Source: Centipeda infelix ATCC 43532
Lineage (GTDB): Bacteria > Bacillota > Negativicutes > Selenomonadales > Selenomonadaceae
NCBI RefSeq assembly: GCF_000234095.1
Contig: NZ_JH376797.1
Coordinates: forward strand, 384,493 to 448,492
Direction: 5' to 3'
Length of the DNA stretch: 64,000 bases
The notes under the pieces: generated by a model
What the model was told of the DNA's origin: nothing
What the model saw: the letters and a program-made list of their open reading frames with translations, nothing else
The model's database searches: none
In this document: positions 7,459 to 60,578 of the stretch, in pieces
Layout: each line of letters begins with the position of its first letter
Numbering within the stretch: position 1 is the first letter of the stretch
Program-made: the position numbers and the translations under genes

Positions 7459-7559
7459 TCTCCTTTTCGGTCACACGAAAGAACTTGTATCTATTTTACC
7501 AATTTTTGTGTGTAAAGGATAGGGAAATATGGTCAAATTACATAAAGGAGTGTACAAAA

Positions 7560-8180: not shown

Positions 8181-8207
8181 AACAACAGATGACAAGGTGG
8201 TAATACG

Positions 8208-8537: not shown

Positions 8538-8607
8538 CACCTATTGATCCGATGGCGATTTTCTGACTTCTTTTCATGATCGTAGCAGGCCATAAATCGA
8601 GAAAGCG

Positions 8608-8862
8608 GTGAACGTTGTGGGAAATGCTCGTGTGCTTTATCCGTATTATCGTATTGGCTTTGGGGCAAGAGACACTGCCATAAAGCAATTCCTCGAAAGT
8701 CCTTTTTGGCGTGGTCTTTGTTCTGAAGATGAAGATCTGGCAGAAGAGCATTACACTGAGGAGGCGGCAGAAGAGTTTTTTGTCACCTATCAAGTCTTAT
8801 TTGACCATGATGGAAAGAACATTCTTTCTCCTCAATGGCTTGTAGATGCAATGAAGGAGTAG
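8608..8862 (+). CDS. hypothetical small acidic protein
   Basis: 84 residues from GTG 8608. No family recognised. The middle is acidic (CSEDEDLAEEHYTEEAAEEF) and it ends ILSPQWLVDAMKE. It lies between the DUF4406 and PAPS-reductase-like genes and may belong to the same accessory module. Confidence 0.5.
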   Translation: MNVVGNARVLYPYYRIGFGARDTAIKQFLESPFWRGLCSEDEDLAEEHYTEEAAEEFFVTYQVLFDHDGKNILSPQWLVDAMKE

Positions 8863-8921
8863 CTGCTATTTTGCGCATTGAATCAGGACGTATGAAAATG
8901 GTAAATGAAATTTAGGAGTGG

Positions 8922-9734
8922 GTGAGTGTGCTCAAAGAAAACACTCTTTACGGCGTGGTAGATAAGGTTAAAGTTGCAATTAAGAGATTGCAGCTACATG
9001 TGCCTCCCGAGGGGTACTATGTAGCCTTTTCTGGAGGGAAAGATAGCTGCGTCGTATATGACCTCTGTAAGAGAGCAGGGGTCAAATATGATGCTCACTA
9101 TAATGTGACAGGCGTAGATCCTCCTGAGTTGGTGAAATTCATTCGTCTCTGTTATCCGGAGGCGTGGGAAGGTCGCAATATGCCCATCAGGACAATGTGG
9201 CAGCTCATTCCCGAAAAGCGGATGCCGCCCACGCGTATGGTGCGCTATTGCTGTCAGGTTCTCAAGGAGGGCGGCGGCAAAGGTAGATTTGTCGTTACGG
9301 GTGTGAGGCACGCCGAATCTACGCGACGTGCCAATCGGAAAATAGTGGAGACGTGCAATCAGCACCGCAATAAACAATATCTGCATCCGATCATTGACTG
9401 GTCGGATGCGGATGTATGGGAGTATATACGCTCCCGCAATCTGCCGTATTGCAGCCTCTACGATGAGGGGTACAAACGCCTCGGCTGCATTATGTGCCCG
9501 TATCAGGGCAAGGCGGGGATGCTACGCGACGCAGAGCGTTGGTCTGCATATGCGAGAGCATACGAGGAAGCATTTCAACGTATGCTTGATAAGAGACGTG
9601 CAGATGGTTTTCCTACACAATGGGAGACTGGTGCGGATGTTATGAAGTGGTGGATCGAACAGGATCATCGTTTGAAAGAAAATGATAAGCAGCTTAGTTT
9701 GTTCGGCATGCGGATGGATGAAAACTCTGTGTAA
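8922..9734 (+). CDS. PAPS-reductase-like PP-loop protein
   Basis: 270 residues with the PP-loop motif FSGGKDSCVVYDL (about residues 33-45), the ATP-pyrophosphatase signature of the phosphoadenosine phosphosulfate reductase superfamily. A Cys-rich C-terminal part (RYCCQVLKEGGG; YKRLGCIMCPYQGK) could hold a metal or Fe-S cluster. Mobile-element members are often not true sulfate-assimilation enzymes; roles in sulfur transfer or nucleic-acid modification are possible. GTG 8922 and GTG 8928 are both usable; the second has better spacing to AGGAG. Confidence 0.8.
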   Translation: MSVLKENTLYGVVDKVKVAIKRLQLHVPPEGYYVAFSGGKDSCVVYDLCKRAGVKYDAHYNVTGVDPPELVKFIRLCYPEAWEGRNMPIRTMWQLIPEKRMPPTRMVRYCCQVLKEGGGKGRFVVTGVRHAESTRRANRKIVETCNQHRNKQYLHPIIDWSDADVWEYIRSRNLPYCSLYDEGYKRLGCIMCPYQGKAGMLRDAERWSAYARAYEEAFQRMLDKRRADGFPTQWETGADVMKWWIEQDHRLKENDKQLSLFGMRMDENSV

Positions 9735-9815
9735 GGAGAAGGGGGGGATATTTGCCGGAAATATGTACTGTTGAAGAGCGCGAAAGTGCATGATTATTAG
9801 ATTTTGGGGGATATC

Positions 9816-10157
9816 ATGAGCAACATACAAGCATCTAATATGCAGGTGACGGAAGAACGTATCAGACAATATCCCAGAAATGTGCTTGAACACGGTGCTG
9901 GAATAGTTGGCACATCTGTCATGCAGGATCCAAACTTACATGTGATTGCAAAGACAATTTACTCTTATCTCTGCGCATATGGCGATACGGATTGTCTCCC
10001 CAGAGATCAGATTTGCTATGACCTTAACATCAACAAGAATACCTACGCGAAGTATATGAGGCAGCTAGTGGATTGTGGATATATTACCCGAATTCAAACA
10101 CGGGACGAGAATAACTATTTTTACCGAAACATCTACGAGATCAATTCTGAGGTGTAG
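9816..10157 (+). CDS. winged-helix replication/regulatory protein
   Basis: 113 residues from ATG 9816, preceded by GGGGG. The core HVIAKTIYSYLCAYGDTDCL followed by RDQICYDLNINKNTYAKYMR and QLVDCGYITRIQ is a typical winged helix of plasmid replication and phage proteins. Probably DNA-binding. A pseudogene fragment follows immediately. Confidence 0.65.
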   Translation: MSNIQASNMQVTEERIRQYPRNVLEHGAGIVGTSVMQDPNLHVIAKTIYSYLCAYGDTDCLPRDQICYDLNINKNTYAKYMRQLVDCGYITRIQTRDENNYFYRNIYEINSEV

Positions 10158-10175
10158 AGTTTCTTGTAGAGTGGT

Positions 10176-10346
10176 CTGGAATGTGATGCGTATCTTCGCA
10201 TCACAACGACGATGGTACGCGAAGCGGATGTTGTCTATGTGCTCCAAAACTGGGAGCACAGCAAAGGCGTTCACGAGGAGCTTGCTCCCGCGGCGCGTCT
10301 TGGCAAGGAGATCATCTACGAACCACGAAAGGCGGTCATCGTATAA
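10176..10346 (+). pseudogene. DUF4406 3'-end fragment
   Basis: A 57-codon remnant closely matches the 3' half of the 8208-8537 gene (8367-8537) with the same length and the same ending EIIYEPRKAVIV. No start codon or N-terminal half (the glycine-rich first strand) is present. It is probably the remains of a tandem duplication or a deletion between two copies. Confidence 0.8.
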
Positions 10347-10388
10347 GAAAATTCATGGTTGCAGAAAAGACTAAGAGGAGAGCAAACA

Positions 10389-10640
10389 ATGATGGCTACC
10401 TATAACGTGTCATTTGAATACAGTCTTATGGGGAGCGTCTATATCGAGGCAGAGAGCGAAGAAGAGGCAAAAGAAGTGTTCCTGAATAAATATGATGGAA
10501 GATGCGAGAAATTGCCGGAAGATTCGAGGGCATCTTTTGAGGATATGGAACTGGAAGTTACGGGTATCGAATTAGAGGATGAAGATGATATAGAGATAAT
10601 TGAAGTCATGAGAGCAGGGCGTTATGACGATCACCATTGA
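10389..10640 (+). CDS. hypothetical small acidic protein
   Basis: 83 residues from ATG 10389, preceded by AAGAGGAG. TYNVSFEYSLMGSVYIEAES starts a beta-strand-rich fold like DpnD/PcfM-type small proteins, followed by an acidic tail (ELEDEDDIEIIEVM). The function is unknown. It overlaps the next gene by 17 bases. Confidence 0.6.
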   Translation: MMATYNVSFEYSLMGSVYIEAESEEEAKEVFLNKYDGRCEKLPEDSRASFEDMELEVTGIELEDEDDIEIIEVMRAGRYDDHH

Positions 10641-10899
10641 TCCTAGAGCGTTGACTGCAACGGTTTTCATCCTTCTAACATTTTATTTTTTTGTTAGAAG
10701 AGATGGCTTACGGCTAATGATTATGACCGTTATGATGTTTTTCGTTAGTTATTTTAATCTGGCGAGAGATCTTCCGAGGGAAGCTGTAATTTCTGCGATG
10801 GACGTTTTTCTTGTTTTTCTTGCTGGAGCAGCTGTTGTTGTTCTGTATTCTGTGTATTGTTTCACAAGGAAGGGCAAAGAGGAAAAGCGCATGAAGTGA
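10624..10899 (+). CDS. small membrane protein
   Basis: 91 residues with two to three hydrophobic segments (ALTATVFILLTFYFF, LMIMTVMMFFVSYF, VFLVFLAGAAVVVLYSVYCF) and a basic C-terminus. ATG 10624 lies within the end of the previous gene, implying coupled translation. Function unknown. Confidence 0.6.
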   Translation: MTITIDPRALTATVFILLTFYFFVRRDGLRLMIMTVMMFFVSYFNLARDLPREAVISAMDVFLVFLAGAAVVVLYSVYCFTRKGKEEKRMK

Positions 10900-10912
10900 G
10901 GGGAGCATATCG

Positions 10913-10999
10913 ATGGAATCCATTGATTTCCGTGTCATCATAGCGATGCTTGGCGTAATGGGATGGGGACTTGTTTTTCACTATAAGGGGCAGTCATGA
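10913..10999 (+). CDS. 28-residue membrane peptide
   Basis: ATG 10913, with GAGGGGAG about eight bases before it, encodes MESIDFRVIIAMLGVMGWGL and eight more residues, giving one short hydrophobic segment. Its stop overlaps the M23 peptidase start (ATGA), so it is likely translated and coupled to that gene. Function unknown. Confidence 0.5.
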   Translation: MESIDFRVIIAMLGVMGWGLVFHYKGQS

Positions 11000-11451
11000 A
11001 CAGAAAACTTTTCTCTGTGGGAGCAGTGCTATTCCTGCTGCTTTTCCCGTTCTGCGTTCATGCAGCCGATCTTCCTGTCACGTCTGCGTTCGGATGGCGT
11101 TACCATCCGATCTCAGGAGAGTGGTCTTTTCATGCGGGTGTAGATCTCGGATATGCAGCAGGAACGCCTATTCCTGCGCTCTTTGACGGTGTTGTGATCC
11201 AAGCCGGCGACTATGCGGACGGTTATGGTAATCAAGTGCTTCTCTATCATCCGTTATTTGATGGATATACACGCTATGCTCATATGTCCGAGGTTGATGT
11301 CAGAGTCGATGAGTATGTGGGACAGGGCACGATTATCGGTCTTGTTGGTGCAACGGGACGCGTGACCGGACCGCATCTGCACCTCGAGTACATTATTCGA
11401 GGGGTAGACGGGAATTATATGTATGCTGATCCACTTGTTTTGTGGCAATAG
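10996..11451 (+). CDS. secreted M23 metallopeptidase
   Basis: 151 residues. A signal peptide (residues 1-23, cut after VHA) precedes a LytM/M23 domain that cleaves peptidoglycan cross-links. Zinc ligands visible are His46 and Asp50 (FHAGVD) and the HLH motif at about residues 127-129 (TGPHLHLEY). In this setting it probably helps open the cell wall for the transfer apparatus. Related domains occur in the 45944 protein. Start overlaps the 28-residue peptide gene. Confidence 0.85.
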   Translation: MNRKLFSVGAVLFLLLFPFCVHAADLPVTSAFGWRYHPISGEWSFHAGVDLGYAAGTPIPALFDGVVIQAGDYADGYGNQVLLYHPLFDGYTRYAHMSEVDVRVDEYVGQGTIIGLVGATGRVTGPHLHLEYIIRGVDGNYMYADPLVLWQ

Positions 11452-11466
11452 GAAAGGTGAAGAACG

Positions 11467-12591
11467 ATGGCAGCGACAAGCCTTCTGATTTCGGAATCCC
11501 CGCTTACCGTTCAGCCGAATCTCGCCGTTCTCATTGGTCTGAATGAGGCGATATTTCTTCAACAACTGCAATACTGGATCAGCCGTGAAGCTGGAATCTG
11601 CGACGAGTATGGTCGCCGCTGGATTTATAATACGGTCAAGCAGTGGAATGTTCAATTTCCGTTCTGGTCAGAAAGTACCATTAAACGCACCATCAAGTCT
11701 CTTGAAGATCAAGAAGTGATGATTTCGACGGTGATCGGAAATTCGTATAACAAGACGAAGGCCTATACCATTAACTATGAGCTGATCGAAGAACTTAGTA
11801 AGAAAATCGTACATAGGCAATTTCAGGCGAGCATAGAAAGTGTTGATCGGCGTATCTCTGCACCTCCACCGATGCGCGAGAAGATGGAATATACCGAAGA
11901 AGCCTCTGCTCCAGATCTCATGAAGCAAGAATATGAGGTCACTGATATATCGGAAGATGGCACAGAAGGTCAAAAAATCAAAACTGATGAACCACGCATA
12001 AGTGTCAAAATGACACTACATGAGGAGCAAGGTGAACCGTATCGTAGTGTCAAAATGACACCACAAGACAGACCCCAAGAAAACCCAATAACGGCGCGGG
12101 ATTGCGTGCCTCCCTCGCGCGCGCACGTAACAGAGACTACAACAACAGAGAACACGCATAGAATACATGAAACAACAACAGGCGATGTCCGAAGTCTTTG
12201 TGCTGCACTCGGTATATCCAGTCCATCATTGGAGCGGTTTATTCGTCGCTATGGCGAGGAAAAAGTATATGAGAAGGCCCGATTTTTGGAGATTGCCATG
12301 CAGACGAAGACCGTCCGGAATCCAACGGGCTGGCTTCATTCTGCCCTCAAGGAAAACTATACATTTTCGCCTAGATCACCACAGGGGGAAGCCCCCTCCG
12401 AACAAACAATGCCCGCCCTGTCTTATGTTCCCCCTGCGCCCAGTTCTGTGCTTACAGAGCAGAACAGAACTGTGAAACGTAACCTGCGTGAGGTTTTGGC
12501 TCATCAAATTGCCGTTGAGGGGGAGGGCTCTGCGTTTGCCCAGGAGTACCTGCGCAGATACGGAAATGCAGAGGGACGATCCAGTCCTTGA
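11467..12591 (+). CDS. replication initiator-like protein
   Basis: 374 residues. The N-terminal 120 residues form a winged-helix domain (LIGLNEAIFLQQLQYWISRE, FPFWSESTIKRTIKSLEDQE). A low-complexity linker follows (about 130-235), then a C-terminal helical domain (SLERFIRRYGEEKVYEKARF, NPTGWLHSALKENYTF) like those of plasmid and phage replication proteins. The linker DNA holds two copies of a 13-bp palindrome. I infer that the element can replicate after excision and that this gene encodes the initiator. Confidence 0.7.
   Translation: MAATSLLISESPLTVQPNLAVLIGLNEAIFLQQLQYWISREAGICDEYGRRWIYNTVKQWNVQFPFWSESTIKRTIKSLEDQEVMISTVIGNSYNKTKAYTINYELIEELSKKIVHRQFQASIESVDRRISAPPPMREKMEYTEEASAPDLMKQEYEVTDISEDGTEGQKIKTDEPRISVKMTLHEEQGEPYRSVKMTPQDRPQENPITARDCVPPSRAHVTETTTTENTHRIHETTTGDVRSLCAALGISSPSLERFIRRYGEEKVYEKARFLEIAMQTKTVRNPTGWLHSALKENYTFSPRSPQGEAPSEQTMPALSYVPPAPSSVLTEQNRTVKRNLREVLAHQIAVEGEGSAFAQEYLRRYGNAEGRSSP
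12001..12061. repeat. two palindromic iteron-like sites inside the rep-like gene
   Basis: TGTCAAAATGACA with extended flanks occurs at 12001-12017 and again at 12046-12061, exactly 45 bases apart and in the linker part of the coding sequence. Some plasmid families keep their origin inside the rep gene, so this is a candidate oriV. Confidence 0.5.
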
Positions 12592-12609
12592 GAGAACGGG
12601 GGATGTGGC

Positions 12610-13005
12610 ATGGGAAACATATCTATACCGACGCTCGGAGAGGAAATGGAGCTTTCATTTCGTCGAGAGCTTGCAGTCGTGGTCGGATTGAACGAAGCGA
12701 TATTTCTCCATCGGCTTGATCAGTTGCTTGCTACAGTGTTGTGTATTCATGAGGATGGGCACAAGTGGGTATGCAAGACAGTCGAAGATTGGCAGCGTGA
12801 GGAATTTCCATTTTGGTCAGAAAGCACGATTAAAAGGATCATCGGCTCCCTGATACAGAAAGATTTCGTAATTGCCATCAAAGCCGAAGGAAAAAGTTCG
12901 TTCGATCACACAAAGGCATACACCATCGACTATGAACGGCTGGATAAATTTTACCGCAGTCTGGCGTATCGGTTCATAGCACCAAAGCCTTATATCATGA
13001 ACTAA
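12610..13005 (+). CDS. paralogue of the replication protein N-terminal domain
   Basis: 131 residues matching the first 120 residues of the 11467 protein (VVGLNEAIFLHRLDQLL, FPFWSESTIKRIIGSLIQKD, TKAYTIDYERLDKFYRSLAY). It lacks the linker and C-terminal domain. It may bind the same DNA sites as a regulator or inhibitor of initiation. That is inference. Confidence 0.7.
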   Translation: MGNISIPTLGEEMELSFRRELAVVVGLNEAIFLHRLDQLLATVLCIHEDGHKWVCKTVEDWQREEFPFWSESTIKRIIGSLIQKDFVIAIKAEGKSSFDHTKAYTIDYERLDKFYRSLAYRFIAPKPYIMN

Positions 13006-13015
13006 TGGAGGGCAT

Positions 13016-13729
13016 ATGCTGTATTACAATAAACCTATTATGGGGATGTACTTGGCAGAGACGATGCTCAACGAACATTACAGAGCTCATAAGAAACGAA
13101 AAGAGCTTGCGGAATTAAAACATTTTGCCCGTGAGGCATCTGTCAAAGATTCCAGGTTATGGGGGAAAATACTGTTTCGCATCATGAAGCAGGAAACAAA
13201 TTATGTCTTGGTTGATATGGTCATTCGCGCTCTCCCGCAAGATTGGCAAATGTTTGTTGATCTCAAATACCGGCGTAAAGAACGAGTTATTAAACAGACG
13301 GAGATGCTTCATGTCTCCTCGTCACAGCTTGGTATATGGAATTCTGCAATTAAGCTCAATGTTCTCAATGCTTTGCAGTATCACTTGACGGTCAATGATG
13401 TTTTTCTCCGAACAAAAGTCATAAATATGCTGGAAGTTCTGGCGACGGTCATTGCGGCAAAAGAAGAGTTGGATCCTGATTTTGAGATCGTCGATGAGTT
13501 TTGGTTCCACTCGCTTGTGCAATATTATGACCAGTACAGCAAGTTGCTTGAGAAGATTGATGACTGTATATCACATCAGGACTGTCGTATGAATATTGCT
13601 GTTGCGGCAATGGTGGAGAACCCCTATGAATCCAATATTGTCTTAGCAGATAAATGTGGTATTCACTCGGCTAGTTTTGGTCGTTATGTGCGAACCTTCC
13701 AAGAGGAAGTGAAACGCTATATCTTCTGA
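13016..13729 (+). CDS. putative sigma-region-4/ArpU-like HTH protein
   Basis: 237 residues. Around residues 75-120, LPQDWQMFVDLKYRRKERVI followed by VSSSQLGIWNSAIKLNVLNA resembles the sigma-70 region 4 / phage ArpU type of helix-turn-helix. The rest is helical, and a second possible HTH near the end is IVLADKCGIHSASFGRYVRT. It is the last gene before the first transfer-type promoter, so it is a candidate activator of the transfer regulon. This is a hypothesis. Confidence 0.5.
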   Translation: MLYYNKPIMGMYLAETMLNEHYRAHKKRKELAELKHFAREASVKDSRLWGKILFRIMKQETNYVLVDMVIRALPQDWQMFVDLKYRRKERVIKQTEMLHVSSSQLGIWNSAIKLNVLNALQYHLTVNDVFLRTKVINMLEVLATVIAAKEELDPDFEIVDEFWFHSLVQYYDQYSKLLEKIDDCISHQDCRMNIAVAAMVENPYESNIVLADKCGIHSASFGRYVRTFQEEVKRYIF

Positions 13730-32351: not shown

Positions 32352-32393
32352 GTAAAATCATAGGATTTTGAAGCTGTACTTTTGGACTACTAT
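32352..32393 (+). promoter_or_regulatory. transfer-type promoter 6
   Basis: GTAAAATCATAGGA (AGGA 32362-32365), 22 bases, TACTAT 32388-32393, upstream of the methylase-helicase start at 32427. Confidence 0.6.
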
Positions 32394-32426
32394 GGAAGCA
32401 GTAGAGCTTGCATAGGAGGAAACCGC

Positions 32427-35400
32427 ATGGACGAGAAAGAACAGCTTCAGGTCGAGATACGGAATCATCTTATCGAGGTAGGTGGGAGCACTTATCAATA
32501 TAAAAATTTCCTTGATACAATCGCAAAGTTTCACAAATACTCTATCATAGAGCAGATCAATCTGCATTATCACGCACCATCTGAGGCAAGTGCCGTTGCT
32601 CCGGATTACGTTTGGAAAAATTCTTTCCGAACAACATTGCGTGATGGGGCAGTTGCAATCCCGCTCTTGGTAACACAGGACAATGAGCAATATGATGTGC
32701 GGTATGTCTATGATATGCGAGATACTCTCGCATATCAGAATGGCGAAGCTGCTTTGCAGGGGATTCCGTGGAAGTTTTCCCCTGAATACGAAAACCTCGT
32801 GAAAAGCGCATTGGATAGTGCGTCTGCACAATCAATAGATGCGGCGATTCGTGCAAAGGTTGTTGAGCTAACCACAGCCCAAAACACGGCACATGATGAT
32901 TTTATTACGGCAAGTGTTGAGTACATTGTGCGTTCCCGCCTTGGACTCTCGAATCAAACTACATTCCCGGAAGAGATGAGTATACCGCAAGATGTTCATA
33001 TTGCGGTGATTCTGGGAGAAGTTAATCAAATATCGCGCACGATCCTGGATTCGATTGGCAAGGTAATTACTGTGGCAAATAGAGAAAATGCTGCAAAGAA
33101 GGAGGCTGTTTCAAATGAAAATGACCGAAGAAATGATCCTGAAATCTCTTTATGGGACATGGGGCGATATGAGAAGGGAGTACCTGAGAAAGACGCAGCC
33201 CGAGGAGTGGCAGCGAATGCTGGAGGACGGAATACTGGATCAGTACCTGCAAGAGTACGAAGAAACGATGTACGAGAGGTCGGAGCAGATGACCGAGGAA
33301 ATCTGCCGGCGGGACAACGTGACAGAGGAACTCAAGAAGCGCGACGTAATGCAGTGGATCCACAGGTACAACAACGTTCTGGCCGAGGTGCGGGAACGTC
33401 TGACGGAAGAGATCATGCCGGCAGTCCAAGAAGCCTCAGTGTAGGGGACTTCTCTATCACGATCCCCGAGACATTGCAGTCAGAATCGGCAAATAAGATT
33501 TTTGCAGATCTTCAAACAGCACGAGAGGAAGGGCAGATTACGAGTGCGCAAGCCCGTGGAATCTACCTTTCTTTCGTGCGTGAACTTATGTCTGCCGAGG
33601 CTCTTACGACAAAAGAACAGGATGCGTTGATCGGACGTGCATATTATGAGGTCGCTGCGACATATACCAGTCCGATAGTTATTCAACAGTCTGCCCGCAA
33701 GGAACAGGTAGAGACTGTGCGCAGCGTTCAAGAGGAGACCATTCCGAAAGAAGCACCTGTCAGCAAAGAAGATACCGCATTATCCATGAATTCCTCAATC
33801 AAGACATGGTATCCGGAAAAATATCCGAATGACCAGAGTGGAACATACTTGGAGGATATTACCTTTCAGGAACTTACCGATGCACTTCCAATGGGAAGTG
33901 AGCTCTATGCATATGCGGGAATTGATTCCAGCGATGTCCGAGAGCGTTTGTTCATACAGCTTGCAGAGCTATCTGAACGCCCCTACGATGATATTTTAAG
34001 TGTTTGGACAGATTCCCCATCAGCCGACCTCGTGAAAGAACAGCTGGAGGAAACGGTCAACGATCCTGAGAATATACCAATGGATTCTTCCACTATTGAA
34101 ACAGACCCCCCCTCTGAAATTCATGAAATCGAGGAAACGGTACGTCCTGTTTACGAAGCTGAGATAGTTGATCCGCAGACAATTGAAGTTCCTGCGTCGG
34201 AAGATCATATCGAAATAAATGTGCCGCCCACCATTGATGCCGAATTTACAGAAGTAGATCTTTCCAAACTGGATTTATCTGCGGATATGTCCACGATGGC
34301 AGGGAAAAGAGCTGTGTTTGAGCGAAATATGGCAGCCATTCAAATTGCCAATCATTTGGAACGCACAGGAAATCTCCCAAACGAGCAGGAACTTGAGGTG
34401 CTGAGATCCTATTCCGGCTTTGGAGGGATCTCGGAGGCTTTTGATGCACGCAACACCACATGGCACAACGAATACGTGCGGGCAAAAGAAGTAATGACAG
34501 AACCTGAATACTTATCAGCACGAACATCTACGCTGGATGCTTTTTACACACCGCCGGAGATTGTTCAGGCAATTTATCAGGGACTTGAAAAAGCAGGTTT
34601 TAGGGAAGGGAATATACTTGATCCATCGACCGGCACAGGACGCTTTCTGCACCATATGTCGGAAGACATGAAAGAGCGCAGCCACAGAGTTGGTATTGAG
34701 CTTGACACGCTGACGGCGAAGATTGCGCGGTATGCGACGGATGGCGCAGTCATTCTGAATAACGGATTCGAGCGCACCAATTTCCCGCAAAACGCCTTTG
34801 ATCTTGCGATTTCCAATGTTCCGTTTGGAAATTATATCATCACGGATTCCAATTATGACGGGAACTACTTTGTTCACGACTACTTCCTGAAAAAAATGAT
34901 GGATCAAGTTCGGCCGGGCGGTCTTGTTGTTGCGATCACAAGTCACGGAACAATGGATAAAAAGGATGACACTCTCCGTAGAGAACTCGCTCAAAAAGGT
35001 GAGCTGATTCGTGCTGTCCGACTGCCGAACAAACTATTCGCGGGTGCGGGCACGGATGTCCTGTCGGATCTTCTGATTTTTAGAAAAAGAGAAAAAGAAC
35101 TGGCTCCGAATGCTGAGATGCCGGCATGGGTAAACGCTGATCTACAGGAATTTGTCTACTTTGACAATGGAAAGCGCGTCGAGGACGGGTATCACCTGAA
35201 TCGTTACTTTGTAGAGAATCCGACCGACATACTTGGAACACTCTCGGCACGAAACAGGGCATTTGGTGTAGAACCTTACGTTGAAGGTGACGACCGTGGG
35301 ATAAAGGCACTTGCGGATGAACTGAGTGCTGTTCTTTCTGGCATTCCGACCAATTCGTATCAGCCTCTTCCAGTTGCTCTCCCTGTCCCACAAGAGATTG

Positions 35401-38400
35401 AAAGGCCATCCAACAATCAGCCTTTCGGCTTTTATGAGCAAAATGGATCCCTCGTCTACTATACGCCACAGGGGAAAATCGAGGCAAAGGGCTTCGACAA
35501 AAAGAATGAACAAAAAATACGTTCGGCGATACGCATTCGCGATGTAATCCGTGAGATGTTTGACGCTGAGACGTATGGCTGCAGCGATACAGAGCTTGCT
35601 CAATTTCAGGACAAATTGAATCAGCTGTATGAGGAGCATACAAAAAAATACGGGCGTATTCACCAGGATAAATCCTTCCGTCGTGTTTTCTCCATGGACG
35701 CATCCTATCCGATCCTGCTTTCATTGGAGATCGTCGAAAATGATGAGTACATCGGACGGTCAGATGTTTTCTCCAAGCGCACCATCCATGCTTATTCAGC
35801 TCCAGATCACGCAGAGACACCGGGCGAAGCTCTAATGATCTCCATGCAGGAAAAAGGACGTGTCGATATTCCGTATATGGCGAAACTGACGGGAATGTCT
35901 GCCGAAGATGTTGTGCGAGACTTGGAATATACCAGTATTTTCGAGGATATGGAGACAAATTCATATCTTCCGGCCGATGAATATCTGTCCGGGGATGTTC
36001 GCGCACGCATGGAGGCTTTGGAAAAACAGATCCAAAAGTGGCAGCAAGAGATGGAGGATGTTGTAAAAGAACAAGCATTTCCTGTACCGAAGGACTTTCC
36101 GTATCGGCTGTCCGGGCGTAACTTACCTCTCGAGAAAATGGCGCGATGGAATGCCATTGGATTTCTTTCAGACGAAGATAAGAAAACACTGTTTCGGGGA
36201 GAAAACAGAGAGGCGTTTTACTATGTACTGAAACATTCCTCGGAGCAGTTTCAAAAAGAATATCTCCGTTTCTTGGAAGAAAATGCCCCAGAAACGGGGG
36301 CTGCTCTGAACGATCCTATGTTTTATTTGGAGTGCCTACGGAACAACGTCATGTTTGATTTCGATGTCAATGAAACACATCGCATATTTTCAAAGACGCT
36401 TGCATCGTTGGGACTGGATCATCGGGATCTTACCGAAGAAGCGACAGAAATTAAGATGATGGGCTTTCTTTATCAGACGTTCTCAGATTACCAGAGAGGC
36501 GCACATCCAGAAGTCTTGGAGCCACAGCGATTGGTCTCGGCACTTCAGGAACATCTGCGAACGTATGACGAGAAAATCGAAATAACGAGAAACGGTGATG
36601 ATAATCCGCTCATTTCCTATTTGCGCGATGAGATTCAGCGGGCTGGCAAGAATTTGGAGGCTCTGGAAAAAGTAAAACCGAAGGATCTGACCGCCGATGA
36701 GATCAAAATCAATTTAGGCGCAACGTGGATTCCGACGGAGGATATTGAACAATTTATTCGAGACGTACTGGAATATCGCGGGACAAATCGCCTTGTTCAG
36801 TATGCTGCCTCCACGGGAGAATGGAAGGTGGAGCATAACAGCGGGGACGCTTATCGCTCGAATCAGGTCAAGATGTATTCGACCTTTGGAACGAAAGATA
36901 CAAACGCGTTGGCCATACTCGAGGCTGCGCTCAATCACCGGCAGATTCGGATTCGTAATGATAAAGGGGTGGTGCTTGAGGAGGCATCTCTGCTTGTGGC
37001 GCAGAAGATGGATAACCTGCGGGACGAGTTCCTCAAATGGGTGTATCGGGATGAAGAACGAAAAATGCGACTGGTGAGCTACTACAACAGGCACTTCAAC
37101 AATATCGTACCGCGTGAGTTTGATGGATCTCGGCTCACCTTTCCGGGGATGAATCCGGAGATAGAATTGAAAAAGCATCAAAAAGATGCTGTTGCACATA
37201 CGTTGTATGGTGGAAACACACTCCTTGCCCATGTTGTTGGAGCAGGAAAAACTTTTGAAATGCAGGCCTCTGCAATGGAATCGAAGCGGATCGGCCTCTG
37301 TAAAAAATCGCTCATGATTATGCCAGGACATTTGACAGAACAGTTTGGTGCGGAATTCTTGCGGCTTTATCCGAATGCGAAAATTCTAGTTGCGACACCC
37401 AAAGATTTCCAGAAAGATAAGCGTGCTGAGTTTTGTGCCAAAATTACGGGGCAGGACTGGGATGCCGTCGTCATGAGCTACGAGCAGTTCGGGAAAATCC
37501 CGCTTTCATTGGAGCGGCAGGAGCAGTTTCTAAAGCGCGAAATCCAAGAACTGACGGATTCTCTCGAAGCGCTTAAAATAGCGAAAGAGGGGAGAGGCTT
37601 CTCTGTGAAACAGATGGAGAAGCAAATCAAGAAGCTGAAAAAGCAGTATGAAAGCGTCATGGAGGCGTATCAGAGCCGTCAGGATGCGACAATTACATTT
37701 GAGCAGCTTGGAATTGATCGACTGTACGTCGATGAAGCTCATTTTTACAAGAATTTGTCGTTTACGACCAAAATTCAGGGATTGAATGCCACGGGCGCAG
37801 AAAAATCGACGGATCTGCTTGCCAAAATTCAATATCTGAACGAGATCACAAATGAGCGCGGTGTTGTTTTTGCGACAGGAACACCTCTCTCAAACTCTAT
37901 GGCTGAACTTTATACCCTTCAACGGTATCTGCGGCCTAGCCGCTTGGAGAAGCAGGGACTCTATCACTTTGATGCTTGGGCAAGTGCTTTCGGGCAGGAA
38001 ACCACGACCATGGAAATCGACCCGGCCGGCAAAGGCTTCCGCGCCAAGACGCGCTTTGCACGATTCAACAACATACCGGAGCTGATGAGTATGTTCAAGG
38101 AGTTTGCGGACGTGAGAACAGCCGAGAGTTTGAAGTTGCCTGTGCCGGAATATGACATCAACATCATAAAGGCAGAGGCCTCTCCTCTGCAGAAGGAGCT
38201 TGTTGATCGCCTTGCCGAACGCGCAAAACGCATCCGGCAGCGCAAGCCGATCCGACTGCGTGAGGATGCTGATGAATCCAGCGGAAAAGGCATGGATAAT
38301 ATGCTGGTCGTCGTCAAAGAAGGACAGTCTGCTGCGCTGGATCCCCGCATTATTGATCCAAGTTATCCGGATAATCCAGCCGGGAAGGTTAATCTGTGCG

Positions 38401-39647
38401 TCAACAATGTATATGACATATACAAGGAGACAATGGATAAGAAGTCAACGCAGGTGATTTTCTGTGATCAGTCTACGCCAAACGCAAAAGCTCCATTCAC
38501 TGTTTATGGGGATATTCGGGATAAACTCATGGGAAAAGGTGTGCCGAAAGACCAGATCGCCTTCATCCATGATTATGATACACCGGAAAAGAAGGAGGCG
38601 CTTTTTACGCGCGTTCGGAAGGGCGAAGTGCGGATTCTTTTGGGATCCTCAGATAAACTCGGCGTTGGAACAAACATCCAGGATAAGTTGATCGCTTCGC
38701 ATGATTTGGACTGCCCATGGAAGCCGAGCCAGATCGAGCAGCGGTTTGGACGTATCGTTCGTCGAGGAAACGAAAATGAGAAGGTCAAGGTCTTCCGTTA
38801 TGTAACAGATGCGACCTTTGATTCGTATATGTGGCAGACGAATGAAACCAAACAGAGGTTCATCTCACAGGTCATGACGAATCGGACACCAGTGCGCGAA
38901 GCAGACGATGTGGATGAATTTACAATGACCTATGCGCAGCTGAAAGCCGCTTGCACGGGGAATCCTCTCTACAAGGAGCAGTTCGAGTTGCGTAGCGACC
39001 TACAAAAACTAGGTGCAGAGCGTGCGCAGTATTTGGAAGACCAATCCAGGCTGAACAATCGCCTGAATGTCGGACTTCCAGCGTATATCAAGACGGCCGA
39101 GGGATTCCTTCAGAATATGCGGAAGGATATTGATACGCTGAATCAGAACGTAGATGATAAGTCACTCGTTTTGGGCGGTGTAACATATAAGACCCCGAAG
39201 GAAATCGGAGAGGTGCTGGCCGATTGTGCGCGTGCGATTTATGATGGTAAATTCAAGGAAACTCCGCGCGGCCGCTATCGCGGTATGAAAATCTCGATTG
39301 TGCAGAATGAGCAGCACAAGATCGATGTCATTATGTCCGGCATGACTACAACGAGCTTCCGCATCGGTGCTACGACCCCAGAGGAAAATGCAACACGCCT
39401 GGAAGATGCTCCGCGTACCGTTTTTGAGAAACTCCCATCGGCAGAAGCAGAAGTGAAGCGGCTGTACCAAGAAGTCGAGGACTGCAAAGAGGGGCTTGGC
39501 AAGCCATTCCCGAAAGAGGAAGAGTACCAAGAAAAAACACTGCGGTTTAACGAGGTCAATTTGCTGATCGAAGAACAAAACAAGCAAGAAGATCAGCAGG
39601 TAACAAAGACTCTCGAAGCAAAACAGGAGGAAGCGGTCGCTCGCTGA
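32427..39647 (+). CDS. giant ArdC-like / N6-methylase / SNF2 helicase protein
   Basis: 2406 residues from ATG 32427, after AGGAGGA. The N-terminus (1-200, with KYSIIEQINLHYHAPSEASA) resembles the LtrC/ArdC region. Residues about 230-340 are a low-complexity Arg/Gly/Asp-rich linker that overlaps a tnpV-like gene. The methylase part has LDPSTGTGRFLHHM (about 731) and SNVPFGNY (about 795; an NPPF-type motif with V for P). The SNF2 helicase has HVVGAGKTFEMQA (about 1601), VDEAHFYKN (about 1767) and IEQRFGRIVRRGN (about 2110). ICEs commonly carry such proteins; an anti-restriction or DNA-processing role is likely. Confidence 0.85.
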   Translation: MDEKEQLQVEIRNHLIEVGGSTYQYKNFLDTIAKFHKYSIIEQINLHYHAPSEASAVAPDYVWKNSFRTTLRDGAVAIPLLVTQDNEQYDVRYVYDMRDTLAYQNGEAALQGIPWKFSPEYENLVKSALDSASAQSIDAAIRAKVVELTTAQNTAHDDFITASVEYIVRSRLGLSNQTTFPEEMSIPQDVHIAVILGEVNQISRTILDSIGKVITVANRENAAKKEAVSNENDRRNDPEISLWDMGRYEKGVPEKDAARGVAANAGGRNTGSVPARVRRNDVREVGADDRGNLPAGQRDRGTQEARRNAVDPQVQQRSGRGAGTSDGRDHAGSPRSLSVGDFSITIPETLQSESANKIFADLQTAREEGQITSAQARGIYLSFVRELMSAEALTTKEQDALIGRAYYEVAATYTSPIVIQQSARKEQVETVRSVQEETIPKEAPVSKEDTALSMNSSIKTWYPEKYPNDQSGTYLEDITFQELTDALPMGSELYAYAGIDSSDVRERLFIQLAELSERPYDDILSVWTDSPSADLVKEQLEETVNDPENIPMDSSTIETDPPSEIHEIEETVRPVYEAEIVDPQTIEVPASEDHIEINVPPTIDAEFTEVDLSKLDLSADMSTMAGKRAVFERNMAAIQIANHLERTGNLPNEQELEVLRSYSGFGGISEAFDARNTTWHNEYVRAKEVMTEPEYLSARTSTLDAFYTPPEIVQAIYQGLEKAGFREGNILDPSTGTGRFLHHMSEDMKERSHRVGIELDTLTAKIARYATDGAVILNNGFERTNFPQNAFDLAISNVPFGNYIITDSNYDGNYFVHDYFLKKMMDQVRPGGLVVAITSHGTMDKKDDTLRRELAQKGELIRAVRLPNKLFAGAGTDVLSDLLIFRKREKELAPNAEMPAWVNADLQEFVYFDNGKRVEDGYHLNRYFVENPTDILGTLSARNRAFGVEPYVEGDDRGIKALADELSAVLSGIPTNSYQPLPVALPVPQEIERPSNNQPFGFYEQNGSLVYYTPQGKIEAKGFDKKNEQKIRSAIRIRDVIREMFDAETYGCSDTELAQFQDKLNQLYEEHTKKYGRIHQDKSFRRVFSMDASYPILLSLEIVENDEYIGRSDVFSKRTIHAYSAPDHAETPGEALMISMQEKGRVDIPYMAKLTGMSAEDVVRDLEYTSIFEDMETNSYLPADEYLSGDVRARMEALEKQIQKWQQEMEDVVKEQAFPVPKDFPYRLSGRNLPLEKMARWNAIGFLSDEDKKTLFRGENREAFYYVLKHSSEQFQKEYLRFLEENAPETGAALNDPMFYLECLRNNVMFDFDVNETHRIFSKTLASLGLDHRDLTEEATEIKMMGFLYQTFSDYQRGAHPEVLEPQRLVSALQEHLRTYDEKIEITRNGDDNPLISYLRDEIQRAGKNLEALEKVKPKDLTADEIKINLGATWIPTEDIEQFIRDVLEYRGTNRLVQYAASTGEWKVEHNSGDAYRSNQVKMYSTFGTKDTNALAILEAALNHRQIRIRNDKGVVLEEASLLVAQKMDNLRDEFLKWVYRDEERKMRLVSYYNRHFNNIVPREFDGSRLTFPGMNPEIELKKHQKDAVAHTLYGGNTLLAHVVGAGKTFEMQASAMESKRIGLCKKSLMIMPGHLTEQFGAEFLRLYPNAKILVATPKDFQKDKRAEFCAKITGQDWDAVVMSYEQFGKIPLSLERQEQFLKREIQELTDSLEALKIAKEGRGFSVKQMEKQIKKLKKQYESVMEAYQSRQDATITFEQLGIDRLYVDEAHFYKNLSFTTKIQGLNATGAEKSTDLLAKIQYLNEITNERGVVFATGTPLSNSMAELYTLQRYLRPSRLEKQGLYHFDAWASAFGQETTTMEIDPAGKGFRAKTRFARFNNIPELMSMFKEFADVRTAESLKLPVPEYDINIIKAEASPLQKELVDRLAERAKRIRQRKPIRLREDADESSGKGMDNMLVVVKEGQSAALDPRIIDPSYPDNPAGKVNLCVNNVYDIYKETMDKKSTQVIFCDQSTPNAKAPFTVYGDIRDKLMGKGVPKDQIAFIHDYDTPEKKEALFTRVRKGEVRILLGSSDKLGVGTNIQDKLIASHDLDCPWKPSQIEQRFGRIVRRGNENEKVKVFRYVTDATFDSYMWQTNETKQRFISQVMTNRTPVREADDVDEFTMTYAQLKAACTGNPLYKEQFELRSDLQKLGAERAQYLEDQSRLNNRLNVGLPAYIKTAEGFLQNMRKDIDTLNQNVDDKSLVLGGVTYKTPKEIGEVLADCARAIYDGKFKETPRGRYRGMKISIVQNEQHKIDVIMSGMTTTSFRIGATTPEENATRLEDAPRTVFEKLPSAEAEVKRLYQEVEDCKEGLGKPFPKEEEYQEKTLRFNEVNLLIEEQNKQEDQQVTKTLEAKQEEAVAR
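33115..33444 (+). CDS. tnpV: TnpV-like protein nested in the methylase-helicase gene
   Basis: 109 residues in a different frame from the surrounding gene. ATG 33115 has a strong site AAGGAGG nine bases upstream. SLYGTWGDMRREYLRKTQPE, MLEDGILDQYLQEYEE, DNVTEELKKRDVMQWIHRYN and NNVLAEVRERLTEEI follow the pattern of TnpV, a small protein found with Firmicutes transposons. Both frames are intact, so this is a true dual-coding region of 330 bases. The bias of the outer protein here (Arg/Gly/Asp-rich, no fold) suggests the outer frame was overprinted on tnpV. Confidence 0.7.
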   Translation: MKMTEEMILKSLYGTWGDMRREYLRKTQPEEWQRMLEDGILDQYLQEYEETMYERSEQMTEEICRRDNVTEELKKRDVMQWIHRYNNVLAEVRERLTEEIMPAVQEASV

Positions 39648-39882: not shown

Positions 39883-40845
39883 ATGATGTCCCACGAGAAT
39901 TTACAGGATGTCTATGCGGCAGAGCAAATGCCACAGGAGATACAAAAGCAAATAGCCGTGCTCGAATCCACGTCACAGGCGGTTCTGATCCAACAGGCAC
40001 AAAATGACCTGCAGCAATGTATCGAACAAGCCTATGACAGGGGAAGCATCTCAGAGGGGACACGCACCTATCTGAGCGCACATTATCTTCACGATGCGTT
40101 CCTGCCGGAGCAGCTTTCGCAACGGAAGATCGCCCTCTTTCATGGCTCGCTGGATGCCGTCGGCTGGCCACAGCTCTCGAAATGTCGTGCGGCAAACGAT
40201 TTCGGCAAGTGCTTTTATTGCACCGAGGAGATGGATCTGGCAAAAGAATGGTCTTGCCAATACGGAAAAGCCGGTGTTGTTTCGGGCTATATCCTCAAAA
40301 TGGACGGCCTGAACATAGTCAACCTGAACTCAGAGCAGTATCATACACTCAACTGGATCGGCACACTGCTCGAGCATCGGCAGCCGAACAATTTGGACGA
40401 TGACAGCAAAGAGGCACGGGACTACCTGATTCAGAACTTCGCCGTTGATCTTTCACGGGCAGATGTCATTGTCGGCTATCGCGCCGACGATTCATATTTC
40501 CAGTATGCAACGGACTTCCTGCGGAATCGCATCAGTCTTGACAAACTCAGTGAAGCGATGCGGTTGGGCAAACTGGGAGAGCAGGTAGCCATTAAATCCG
40601 AGCGAGCATTCAAGAGACTTGAGTTCAAACGAGCCTATCCGACGGCACAGAAATATATTGGTCTCTATATGCAGCGTGATACGCGTGCGCGAGAGACCTA
40701 TCGGAAATCCCTCAGAGGGCAAATTCGCATCCCGAACAAACTCACCATCGAGCGCATCATCCAGGAGGGGATAAAGAATGATGACGAGATCCTACTCAGA
40801 CCTCTATATCGAGGACGCACAAGAGAATCTTGGCAACATGTTTGA
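39883..40845 (+). CDS. DUF3990 ADP-ribosyltransferase-like protein
   Basis: 320 residues. Residues about 80-210 match DUF3990, distantly related to ADP-ribosyltransferases. ALFHGSLDAVG, CRAANDFGKCFYCTEEMDLA, and VVSGYILKMDGLNIVNLNSE are in family order, then DVIVGYRADDSYFQYATDFL. A C-terminal segment (RGQIRIPNKLTIERIIQEGI) resembles units in the 30319 protein. The next gene starts inside it, after an AGGAGGGG site. A toxin-antitoxin or transferred-effector role is possible. Activity is not proven from sequence. Confidence 0.7.
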   Translation: MMSHENLQDVYAAEQMPQEIQKQIAVLESTSQAVLIQQAQNDLQQCIEQAYDRGSISEGTRTYLSAHYLHDAFLPEQLSQRKIALFHGSLDAVGWPQLSKCRAANDFGKCFYCTEEMDLAKEWSCQYGKAGVVSGYILKMDGLNIVNLNSEQYHTLNWIGTLLEHRQPNNLDDDSKEARDYLIQNFAVDLSRADVIVGYRADDSYFQYATDFLRNRISLDKLSEAMRLGKLGEQVAIKSERAFKRLEFKRAYPTAQKYIGLYMQRDTRARETYRKSLRGQIRIPNKLTIERIIQEGIKNDDEILLRPLYRGRTRESWQHV

Positions 40846-57289: not shown

Positions 57290-60268
57290 TTATAGATCAC
57301 GGTAGATTTGTTTGTTTGCTTCTTCTGCCTTGGCGGCCTCGGACATGAGCGTCCATGTTTTGAGCGCAGAGTTATCCTCCCGCATGGTTGCAACCAAACT
57401 CGCATAATGTGAGTTTCCGGAGACCGCTTCGGCGATGATAGCCGGTTTGTCTTTGGCTTTTACAGGGGCAGATACCTTATACTGTTGCGCGTTTTGCTTA
57501 TCGCCCTGCACGGCTTTTGCGAGTGCCTCCATTTGCAGTTTTGCGCGGTTCATTTTTTCTGTCGCACGTTCCAGGCGCCTCTGCAACGCATCGCATTGTT
57601 CTTGATAAGGGGCGTTTTTCTTTATGATCCCAAGAGCAATATCTTTGATTTTCGCCTTTCCCTGCGGTGAGTCAATCTGTGTTGCCAGCCTCTTTTTCTG
57701 TTGCTCCAATTCGATCTTGCGGTTTGCTAAATCACGGATTCTTTGATTCAGGTCATCACGACGAGAAGCGAGTGCGCGGTATCGTTCCTGATATTCTGTG
57801 TATCGGTCGCGATCCGCAGATGCCGGAACTGGCAGTTTCCGAAATTCTGCAATATCTTGCTCCAATTTTGCTTGATCGTTCTGCAGATAGCCTTCCTGCT
57901 TTTTCAATTCTCGGAGATCCTCGCGCAATTTTTTCAGCCCGCCCTTCGTATAGATATTGCTTGCCATCTGCAATGCACGATCCATAGACAGGACTTTCTT
58001 TTTCGCAGCTTCCAGCTGTTTTTGCAATCGCTCCGTTTCTTTCTTGTAGCCATAAAATCGTTTTCGTATGATGGAATAGAGCTGATGCGTTGTGTAGGTA
58101 TCCTGCTGATTTTCTGCGTGCGTTTCTGCGAATAATCCTTGCTCCAATGCCCGCATAGATATTTCCAAGTTCTGCTCGGCTTTTGTGAGTTTTTTGCGAA
58201 TCTGCGCATTAGCTTGCAACGTCTTGTGCGTAATTAGTTGAATCTGTTTCTGTATGTCCGTATTCTTCAATCGGATTTCTAAAGCGTCTATTTTATCTTG
58301 GAGCAGGTATTTATCATGTTGAAGGTTTGATAGCTTTTCATCGAGTGCCGGCAAGAGCTGTCGATAGGCGGCCAGTTCTTCATCTGTCGGATTTTTAGGC
58401 TCTTCCAGATTTTCTTTGAATTCCGTCCATCGCTGGATGTCCGACAGGATTTTTTTATACGTCTGATACGCATCTTTCTCCTCCTCCGTCATATACTCGA
58501 TTTTCGCATTTTCTTGTGCATCAGCAACGGATATAAGCATCCGCTGCAGGTGCTCATGGGCATGTACGGCCTCAACGAAACTATCCCGCAGTTCGCCAAT
58601 GTGTGAGGTTGCGTCATTTTCGCTCTCGATGAACTCATTTGATGATACGACTGCTTTGATGTTTTTCTTGAGCCGCCCTGTCTTCTCTTTTCGCTCATCT
58701 TCCTCCATTCCATGTGCAACAAGCTCGGCAGCAAAAAGCAAGTCTTGATATTCTTTCTTGTGGACACGATACTGCTTGATGCGCTGCACCTGCGGATTGC
58801 TGTCCTCGAGCACGCCATGCTTACTGATGTGCTCCTCCGGAATACGGTTCAAAAGATTTGCCAGTACAAGATCTCCGTTCATGCGGGCTTCCTGTTCCTG
58901 GGCTTTGAGGCTGCGATGGTCAACTCTTGCGCTGTGTCCGTACTTCTCCAATACACTGTTTACGATTTCTTCATAGGAAGCCCGTAAATGTGGGACATAG
59001 GTACGGTCTGCCCATTTGCGATCTATGGGTGCTCCATGGCTGCGCATCGCTTCTTCCGTTTTGTTTTTTACGTTCTCACGCAGCGGATAGCGAAAGTAAG
59101 CGGATCGCTTCCGCTCTTTCTTTTTTTCGACCTCATCGACCAGCCGCGTGGAGAATACCAGGTGAACGTGAAGATTATGCGTCCCATCGGACATTGCGCC
59201 AATTTTATCATGTACGGCGAGTGAGTAGTAGTGATCGGGCAGGTTCTCTTGGATGAATCTGTTGACGATCTCTAAATTCTGCTCAAGGGTCAATTCATTC
59301 TGTAATGCAAATTCCAGATCTTTATAACGAGCTGCGTTTTTAGGAGAGTAGCGGTCTGCTGCTCGAAAAAAGACGCTGGGCGAATCCTTCGCCCATTTTG
59401 GAAGATGGTGCTGCTTATAGACGCAATCTCCGCGCTCTGAATACGCCTTTTCACGGTTGATATACTCAACATGACGTTGTGCGTATATCGTATCCATGTT
59501 GCTTTCGATGTTATCTAGGATTCGCCTTGCGGTTCCTCGAGCATACTGTTTTCGTCCGTCAGATAAATCCCATCGCATAAAGGTATTGTGTGTGGCTCCG
59601 TCGTGTCCCAACTGACCACTCTCATCGCTTGACACCAACAGCGCAGCGTCCTCTGATCGAGTGCCATCCACAGAGAGTTTGGGCAGTTGACGCATTGTGG
59701 GTAGGGTTCCGATGGAAGCAGCTTTGGCATTTCCACGCTGATTTTCGTCAATGTCGGGCTTTGGAATGTTCTTGCGGACGACAACTCGTCCACCTTGTTC
59801 TCTAAATCGTTCTCGTTCATCCTGTTTCTCCTTTCGCTTCTTTTCAAGGATGCTCTGCATATTCGCATCTTTGAAAGTGACTGGCAGATCGGACAAAAGA
59901 GCAGCATGGATACATTTTGCTTTGAAGGCCAGACTGCCGTTCACTATCAAAGGCTCTGTCATGGTTTCTTTTGCGACCATGAGAGCAGTGGCGATTGTGT
60001 CATAGGATGGATCATCCGTGACGACAATCCCTTTTTCTGTATTGGTGATTTTTCCGTAGGGACTTGAATAAAGCAGAACAGTCCGGCCATCAATCGCGTC
60101 TTTTTTTCGAGTTGATGAGATGACGTTATCCATGCTCTGAGGTTGGCGTTCATCTATGTTCTTAAACTTTCCTTCACGGTTGATATAGTCCGAGTGTTCG
60201 ACGGCTGAAATCTGCGTTTTCGTCTTTGGGCGCTTGTCATTCTTGACGGTAAAATGGTATAAAGCCAT
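57290..60268 (-). CDS. mobA: MobA/MobL (MobQ-type) relaxase
   Basis: 992 residues from ATG 60268 (MALYHFTVK). The likely catalytic Tyr is Tyr28 (SAVEHSDYINREGKF). The metal-binding histidines are in THNLHVHLVFSTR (about 360). The middle fits the family (HLPKWAKDSPSVFFRAADRY, NELTLEQNLEIVNRF). Between them lies an insert of about 200 residues with an LPD7-like stretch (YDTIATALMVAKETMTEPLI, VNGSLAFKAKCIHAALL), after which YINRE recurs. Residues 600-990 are coiled coil. It nicks oriT and pilots the strand. The candidate oriT is 153 bases upstream. Confidence 0.85.
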   Translation of the reverse strand: MALYHFTVKNDKRPKTKTQISAVEHSDYINREGKFKNIDERQPQSMDNVISSTRKKDAIDGRTVLLYSSPYGKITNTEKGIVVTDDPSYDTIATALMVAKETMTEPLIVNGSLAFKAKCIHAALLSDLPVTFKDANMQSILEKKRKEKQDERERFREQGGRVVVRKNIPKPDIDENQRGNAKAASIGTLPTMRQLPKLSVDGTRSEDAALLVSSDESGQLGHDGATHNTFMRWDLSDGRKQYARGTARRILDNIESNMDTIYAQRHVEYINREKAYSERGDCVYKQHHLPKWAKDSPSVFFRAADRYSPKNAARYKDLEFALQNELTLEQNLEIVNRFIQENLPDHYYSLAVHDKIGAMSDGTHNLHVHLVFSTRLVDEVEKKKERKRSAYFRYPLRENVKNKTEEAMRSHGAPIDRKWADRTYVPHLRASYEEIVNSVLEKYGHSARVDHRSLKAQEQEARMNGDLVLANLLNRIPEEHISKHGVLEDSNPQVQRIKQYRVHKKEYQDLLFAAELVAHGMEEDERKEKTGRLKKNIKAVVSSNEFIESENDATSHIGELRDSFVEAVHAHEHLQRMLISVADAQENAKIEYMTEEEKDAYQTYKKILSDIQRWTEFKENLEEPKNPTDEELAAYRQLLPALDEKLSNLQHDKYLLQDKIDALEIRLKNTDIQKQIQLITHKTLQANAQIRKKLTKAEQNLEISMRALEQGLFAETHAENQQDTYTTHQLYSIIRKRFYGYKKETERLQKQLEAAKKKVLSMDRALQMASNIYTKGGLKKLREDLRELKKQEGYLQNDQAKLEQDIAEFRKLPVPASADRDRYTEYQERYRALASRRDDLNQRIRDLANRKIELEQQKKRLATQIDSPQGKAKIKDIALGIIKKNAPYQEQCDALQRRLERATEKMNRAKLQMEALAKAVQGDKQNAQQYKVSAPVKAKDKPAIIAEAVSGNSHYASLVATMREDNSALKTWTLMSEAAKAEEANKQIYRDL

Positions 60269-60471: not shown

Positions 60472-60578
60472 CCATTCTATCAAAACAGGCACAATAAAGT
60501 GGGAAACAAACGGGAAACTTGATTCCCATTTTGAAAAAAATGGGAGCGTGCATGGTATACTCTGATTGAATCGTAACA

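Follow-up and report, generated by a model that had tools for sequence, protein, structure and literature searches.

In the 64,000-nucleotide stretch of Centipeda infelix ATCC 43532 DNA analysed here (the window), a small gene of the TnpV family lies wholly inside a 2406-codon gene for an N6-methylase/SNF2 helicase, in another frame of the same strand. Comparison with related loci indicates that this is a true overlapping gene pair with dual coding, tnpV being nested in a DarB-like methylase-SNF2 gene, and we put the probability of this reading at about 0.85. Both frames are open and both are constrained across homologues, from which we infer that both proteins are made. The sequence-only reading of this DNA had proposed an intact TnpV-like ORF out of frame in the giant gene, and dual coding of the shared stretch; the ORF is confirmed by profile match, ribosome-binding site and two open frames, and dual coding is supported by the constraint on each frame.

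The outer gene (32427 to 39647, plus strand) counts 2406 codons from the ATG at 32427, in an ORF that is open from a TTG at 32382 to 39647. The inner gene (33115 to 33444, plus strand) has 109 codons counted from the ATG at 33115, the ORF that ends at 33444 being open from an ATG at 33088. It is read in the +1 frame, starting from the second position of an outer codon, and both frames are free of stops across the 330 nucleotides. An AAGGAGG ribosome-binding site (33099 to 33105, plus strand) is found 9 nt 5' of the inner ATG, and was scored as AGGAGG with a spacing of 9. The inner protein matched the Pfam TnpV profile (PF14198) with 68.1 bits against a gathering cut-off of 27 (E = 7.9e-19); residues 11-100 align to positions 21-110 of the 111 in the profile, the first 20 positions being absent. 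It is the only tnpV copy in the source genome in a search at E up to 10. A chance ORF, considered as a reading of the window tnpV, was ruled out by the Pfam score. For an antisense ORF at 33067-33429, no Pfam match above cut-off was obtained.

The outer protein carries three Pfam domains in one chain, all above their cut-offs and all on the plus strand: an N6 adenine methylase (N6_Mtase, 44.6 bits; residues 704-891, positions 34536 to 35099), an SNF2-related ATPase (SNF2-rel_dom, 38.0 bits; residues 1545-1925, 37059 to 38201) and a Helicase_C domain (30.4 bits; residues 2032-2114, 38520 to 38768). Residues 1-389 had no Pfam match up to an E of 1; the N-terminal domain presumably resembles ArdC-N. 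The gene sits in a conjugative element, with VirD4-like (21784), VirB11-like (24672), VirB4-like (27647), CagX-like (18198), TrbI-like (19351) and TrbL-like (43245) genes, a ParM-like actin at 53095 and a MobA/MobL relaxase with LPD7 on the minus strand (57290-60613). With methylase and SNF2 domains in one chain and a conjugative element around it, the outer protein is DarB-like. A DUF3990 gene (E = 3e-38) lies shortly downstream of the methylase-helicase gene, at 39883-40845.

Structure prediction assigned different tasks to the two frames. AlphaFold with 38 aligned inner proteins gave an all-helical model with a mean pLDDT of 88.7. From 26 aligned N-terminal regions of the outer protein, the model was mostly confident over the first ~230 residues, with block means mostly 80-96 up to residue 230, predicting a folded N-terminal domain (32427 to 33113, plus strand); residues 243-351 had a pLDDT below 50. 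The outer residues over tnpV (230-339; 33114 to 33443, plus strand) are rich in Arg (16%), Gly (14%), Ala (11%) and Asp (10%), so composition and model both agree with the earlier description of an Arg/Gly/Asp-rich linker without a fold. In these models the fold is carried by the inner product, and the outer product is a disordered tether in the overlap.

The nearest relative of the locus is on NZ_CP017043, a plasmid of Selenomonas sp. oral taxon 920 (L012), with 73.7% DNA identity across the entire 2574-base query. Its outer ORF is open for 2403 codons (6001-13212) and contains the tnpV ORF, with AGGAGG at the same spacing as in the window. Between the two loci, identity is 77/109 (71%) for the inner protein and 64/110 (58%) for the outer protein in the overlap; the outer protein is 161/226 (71%) identical upstream of the overlap and 1649/2064 (80%) downstream. 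RefSeq annotates TnpV at 6686-7009 of this plasmid and puts the start of the SNF2 protein at 7126, so that the annotation lacks 375 codons at the beginning of the big protein. Annotation of other elements may likewise place the SNF2 start after tnpV.

The outer methylase was found in 18 of 398 evenly drawn Bacillota genomes, in 25 copies in total. A nested TnpV is present in 23 of these; of the other two, L059 is cut by a contig end and L078 is without TnpV, demonstrating that a short TnpV-free linker is possible. Together with the NZ_CP017043 plasmid and a further 80 loci from genomes (the best 80 of 582), these copies gave a set of 106 outer-gene loci, some of them near-identical or related, so that counts over the set are not independent. 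TnpV was matched in 90 of the 106, using a profile built from 22 TnpV sequences, nested ones included, which leans towards finding nests (Pfam's own TnpV profile is free of that lean); the match is full-length in 84 of the 90. The outer frame is open across TnpV in 89 of the 90, the remaining one (L143) being cut by a contig end, and the third frame is open across it at none of the loci in the set. In most complete loci the nest lies about 150-345 codons from the guessed outer start. Hosts among the best 80 of 582 include Negativicutes (Anaerovibrio and a Selenomonadaceae MAG), many Clostridia, Paenibacillus, Brevibacillus, Desulfosporosinus and a Synergistaceae MAG; loci are labelled ICE by likeness only.

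Sixteen of the 106 loci had no TnpV. Eight are cut by a contig end, two (L123 and L154) begin less than 50 nt from one, and in six (L078, L108, L126, L131, L156 and L165) TnpV is truly absent despite enough upstream sequence. In L146 it is broken across two frames in a decayed gene. On the test set by the sequence-only reading, whether homologous methylase-helicases carry stops in the tnpV frame, 90 of the 106 loci thus have a TnpV match, six truly lack it and L146 has it in broken form. At 5 of 89 loci (L127, L146, L170, L175 and L176) the methylase ORF is disconnected from the outer ORF bearing tnpV, by a stop or a frameshift; in L175 (10342) and L176 (8560) an in-frame stop follows the tnpV-bearing outer part, as if the big gene had been split in two. 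L126 carries a free-standing TnpV-like gene (1306-1624) beside its outer gene without a nest. Tandem TnpV-like genes were seen in a genome of the window's family (L087, 4401-4718 and 5061-5348 in strand coordinates).

Start signals accompany the inner frame. The best-scoring inner start is an ATG in 83 of the 84 nested tnpV genes, and AGGAG stands 5-16 nt upstream of it in 61 of 84; the start was taken as the top scorer among several candidates, which flatters these counts. As a background, AGGAG preceded internal ATGs of the same genes in 22/4319, 65/6837 and 12/712 cases in the three frames (0.5-1.7%). No start signal was seen in 4 of the 84. A second out-of-frame ORF with AGGAG, of 87 codons, was noticed at 4662 in the ~3286-codon outer gene of L066; no further case of the kind was seen among the 84 genes.

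Constraint on the inner frame was analysed over 33 disjoint pairs of nested loci, inner codon position 2 being outer codon position 3. Within the overlap, difference rates at inner positions 1, 2 and 3 were.200,.163 and.314. For outer positions 1, 2 and 3 the rates were.247,.190 and.436 in the flank upstream and.150,.094 and.406 in the methylase. The outer third position is therefore the fastest elsewhere in the outer gene and the slowest within the overlap (.163). Its share of the differences was lower in the overlap than in the flank in all 33 pairs (33/33; sign test, 2e-10), it was slowest or tied in 31 of 33, and the comparison of the window with L012 alone gave 1e-6 by Fisher's test. This reduced share of changes at the outer third position within the overlap shows that the inner frame is constrained, and the amino-acid constraint that the sequence-only reading had expected is present. 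Conservation of the outer frame alone was also considered; it would make the outer third position the fastest, and the observed one is the slowest.

The outer frame leaves a corresponding mark on the inner synonymous sites. Inner four-fold sites differed at 275/1040 (.264), compared with 894/2199 (.407) in the upstream flank and 1451/3355 (.432) in the methylase; divergence was lower than in the upstream flank in 28 of 32 pairs and higher in 4. Nested tnpV genes also diverged less at four-fold sites than free-standing ones (270/1089 =.248 versus 177/451 =.392) at equal protein identity (.73 and.72). As inner four-fold sites diverge less than both the flank and free-standing tnpV, the outer frame is constrained as well. 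None of the 84 nested tnpV genes has a stop in the outer frame; of 35 distinct free-standing ones, 34 do. At four-fold sites before AA, AG or GA, T was found at 0 of 1339 sites when nested versus 13.1% of 503 when free-standing, a lack that is in part simply stop avoidance. T is rarer in nested genes in other contexts too (10.4% versus 25.2%), in keeping with a linker that avoids aromatic residues and cysteine, and base composition may contribute. The sole free-standing case of the 35 without an outer-frame stop is the tnpV of L088, where that frame is open for 162 codons; this gene may have escaped recently or be what is left of a big gene.

The nest extends to phages. Viral contigs were scanned with the methylase alignment and the best 80 of 225 loci were taken, a few of them on contigs that are ICE-like, not phage. 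A TnpV-like ORF is nested at +1 inside an outer ORF of more than 300 codons in 58 of these 80 loci, a count that leans towards nests since the phage TnpV profile was iterated from its own hits. Comparison of this profile with the seed TnpV alignment (22 sequences, nested and free-standing) by hhalign gave a probability of 98.6. The first profile likewise detected nested TnpV in L215, L227 and L228, and Pfam's TnpV profile passed its cut-off of 27 for four of four hand-picked phage inner ORFs (28.2, 29.0, 28.5 and 30.9 bits). The 53 distinct phage inner ORFs start with ATG (42), GTG (10) or TTG (1), and AGGAG or GGAGG precedes the start in 38 of 53, versus 184 of 11571 (1.6%) start codons in the +1 frame of the same genes; here too the start was the top scorer among several candidates, which favours the signal count. 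Over 15 disjoint viral pairs, the inner rates were.289/.224/.348 and the outer flank rates.254/.204/.516, with the share of the outer third position lower in the overlap in 15/15.

Fourteen of the 16 named phages that we examined carry the nest; eight of the 16 had been picked by a match to the inner query and eight by methylase alone. The methylase-picked phages with a nest number 6 of 8: BcepIL02, POI1126, VvAW1, Itty13, USP_25 and, weakly (E = 0.002), 8P. Nested TnpV was not found in P1 darB nor in Streptococcus phi-SgaBSJ27_rum. The inner start lacks a textbook ribosome site in several named phages, and none of the annotation tables of the 14 nest-bearing phages has a separate gene for the inner ORF. 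A different arrangement is seen in Sinorhizobium phage PBC5 (L301, 2764-9306), where the upstream DarB-like CDS (gp22) runs in frame into the TnpV-like stretch, which forms its C-terminus, with the outer frame opening at 8730; this may be a frame change, a split gene or a sequencing error. The TnpV-like end of PHROG 938 may have its explanation in this arrangement.

Other readings of the shared DNA have to be weighed against dual coding. RefSeq's annotation of NZ_CP017043 (TnpV at 6686-7009, SNF2 from 7126) corresponds exactly to two separate genes without read-through, in which the methylase-helicase starts after tnpV and the outer frame is open by accident. On that same plasmid, however, the frame is open from 6001 for 2403 codons; the 0/84 versus 34/35 count of outer-frame stops and the slowed inner synonymous sites also speak against an accident, and the region 5' of tnpV has the codon pattern of the outer gene, with the third position fastest, and a confident predicted fold. 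We regard separate genes as extremely unlikely. The reverse possibility, that the inner frame is a relic of tnpV now read only as outer-frame linker, has in its favour that a few loci, such as L146, are decayed. A relic would not be expected to leave the outer third position (inner position 2) slowest or tied in 31 of 33 pairs, nor to keep its start signal and a full-length TnpV in 84 of 90 loci, and there is very little chance that it applies. Ribosomal frameshifting out of the outer frame would produce a fusion of the N-terminal domain with TnpV and no free TnpV, and the TnpV-like frame of PBC5, continuous with the upstream DarB-like part, is in favour of this reading. The PBC5 case may, however, be a sequencing error or a single frameshift, and an ATG at the expected place in 83 of 84 genes, preceded by AGGAG in 61, counts against it; we consider frameshifting very improbable.

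The sequence-only reading had also supposed that a free tnpV was captured locally and the big frame extended through it. The TnpV tree lends this some colour, as the window and L012 belong to a supported set of 9 rows, 4 of them free-standing genes, L086 and L087 being the nearest rows after L012, and L078 shows that a short TnpV-free linker is possible. A local event sits poorly with the same nest, in the same frame and at a similar place, across ICE-type genes of many Bacillota and DarB-like phage genes, and this part of the earlier reading is not upheld; we give local capture a very low probability. In the TnpV tree (179 rows) the labels change 12 times for nested-ICE, 3 for nested-phage and 9 for free-standing, of which strongly supported branches force only 3, 1 and 3. 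The tree therefore requires several switches between nested and free-standing, whose order it does not give: it has few columns and many long branches and is unrooted, so that direction cannot be read from it. The methylase tree (180 rows) contains 145 nested rows, 24 with no nest and 11 undetermined, with 17 changes, at least 6 of them forced. The rows with no nest, two of which are doubtful (L215 does carry a nested TnpV, and the methylase of L131 is the same as that of the nested L128), are scattered among nested rows, which hints at losses of the nest. This scatter of TnpV-free genes and the wide spread of the nest favour an old nest with later losses.

We therefore retain a conserved, dually coding nest, and propose how it might operate. 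One mRNA would serve both proteins, with tnpV started at its own ribosome-binding site: ribosomes in the outer frame would traverse the 330 bases as disordered linker, and others would initiate inside and make TnpV. The inner frame would carry the folded protein and the outer frame would only have to stay open and hydrophilic, its product there being a disordered tether that joins the N-terminal domain to the methylase-helicase part. TnpV might serve as a small partner or chaperone reserved for the methylase-helicase, produced in every setting that produces the big protein, as the DNA of the element enters a new cell.

Such cooperation between TnpV and the methylase-helicase, whether as partner, chaperone or otherwise, is a tentative suggestion to which we give less than even odds. 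The tnpV gene of Tn4451 stands free, close to a large serine recombinase, and help in excision has been postulated for it from its likeness to lambda Xis (excerpts of PMC3158075). The window protein matches the same family profile (PF14198) above the cut-off; unlike the Tn4451-type gene it is nested in another gene, it lacks the N-terminal 20 profile positions, and its model has no close fold match. A partner or chaperone role is deemed likelier than an excision role because the nest is seen with a DarB-like protein in both ICE-type elements and phages, and an excision role would not explain why tnpV sits in phage methylase-helicase genes. Free-standing tnpV genes also occur in elements in which no methylase-helicase was seen next to them, which weakens the partner idea and speaks against an exclusive tie. 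Equally, six bacterial loci, P1 darB, a Streptococcus phage and about a quarter of the viral loci are without TnpV, and the outer protein can thus do without it. Mobilisable elements with their own tnpV are reported, in excerpts of PMC9815147, to prefer the snf2 gene of Streptococcus suis ICEs for insertion, an odd link between free tnpV and the snf2 gene family.

Fold searches with the TnpV model gave weak matches throughout. Foldseek returned 3 matches in the PDB (best E 6.5) and 4 unnamed ones in BFVD (best E 1.3); VIA-align against 6 chains reached a best Z of 4.9, meaningless for a helical model; and a profile search of PDB sequences with TnpV gave 4 weak matches (best E 0.011). No function of TnpV is therefore drawn from its fold. 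In NCBIfam the sole match of the inner protein was far below cut-off and provided no usable name, and PHROGs gave a match to phrog_24764, of unknown function.

DarB-like polyvalent proteins have been described as a methylase-SWI2/SNF2 dyad, P1 DarB protecting DNA in cis against type I restriction (Iyer and others 2017; excerpts of PMC5512222). The outer protein of the window shares the methylase and SNF2 domains and sits among conjugation genes, and differs from P1 darB in its nested TnpV. The words "TnpV" and "overlapping" occur 0 times in those excerpts. A DarB-like protein, gp69 of JC1, was reported in virions of this Bcep22-like phage, and the excerpted text of that paper mentions no nested gene in darB (PMC9144972). 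The same source describes, in phage JC1, an Rz1 gene embedded in the Rz spanin gene; there too a small gene is wholly nested in another frame, but Rz and Rz1 are lysis proteins and not homologous to the pair described here. The overprinted genes of Escherichia coli described in the abstracts of PMC4683798 and PMC5810103, in which two proteins come from one DNA stretch, are recent or orphan overlaps, whereas the tnpV nest encodes a member of a known protein family and is conserved in several classes as well as in phages. A search of the open-licence full-text literature found no report of the tnpV/methylase-helicase overlap.

Few long nested genes are found in prokaryotes, and they frequently meet with doubt, since only one example exists or homology is lacking. 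Here a recognised protein family, its coding stretch hundreds of bases long, is encoded on the same DNA as a giant gene, both in conjugative elements carried by many Bacillota and in phages, with Proteobacteria among the phage hosts, and both frames can therefore be tested by comparison alone. The lesson for annotators is that one member of the pair is routinely dropped or truncated. A bolder view, possible but in our judgement somewhat short of an even chance, is that TnpV was born as an overprinted gene in a methylase-helicase gene, or has lived there since before the split between ICE-type and DarB-phage genes; it would then be a standard second product of DarB-type anti-restriction loci, overlooked as gene callers forbid such overlaps, and free tnpV genes of the Tn4451 type would be escaped copies. 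The locus offers a clean case of load-sharing between frames, in which one product is predicted to fold and the other to serve as a disordered tether, and DarB-like anti-restriction proteins gain in TnpV a possible, as yet unstudied companion.
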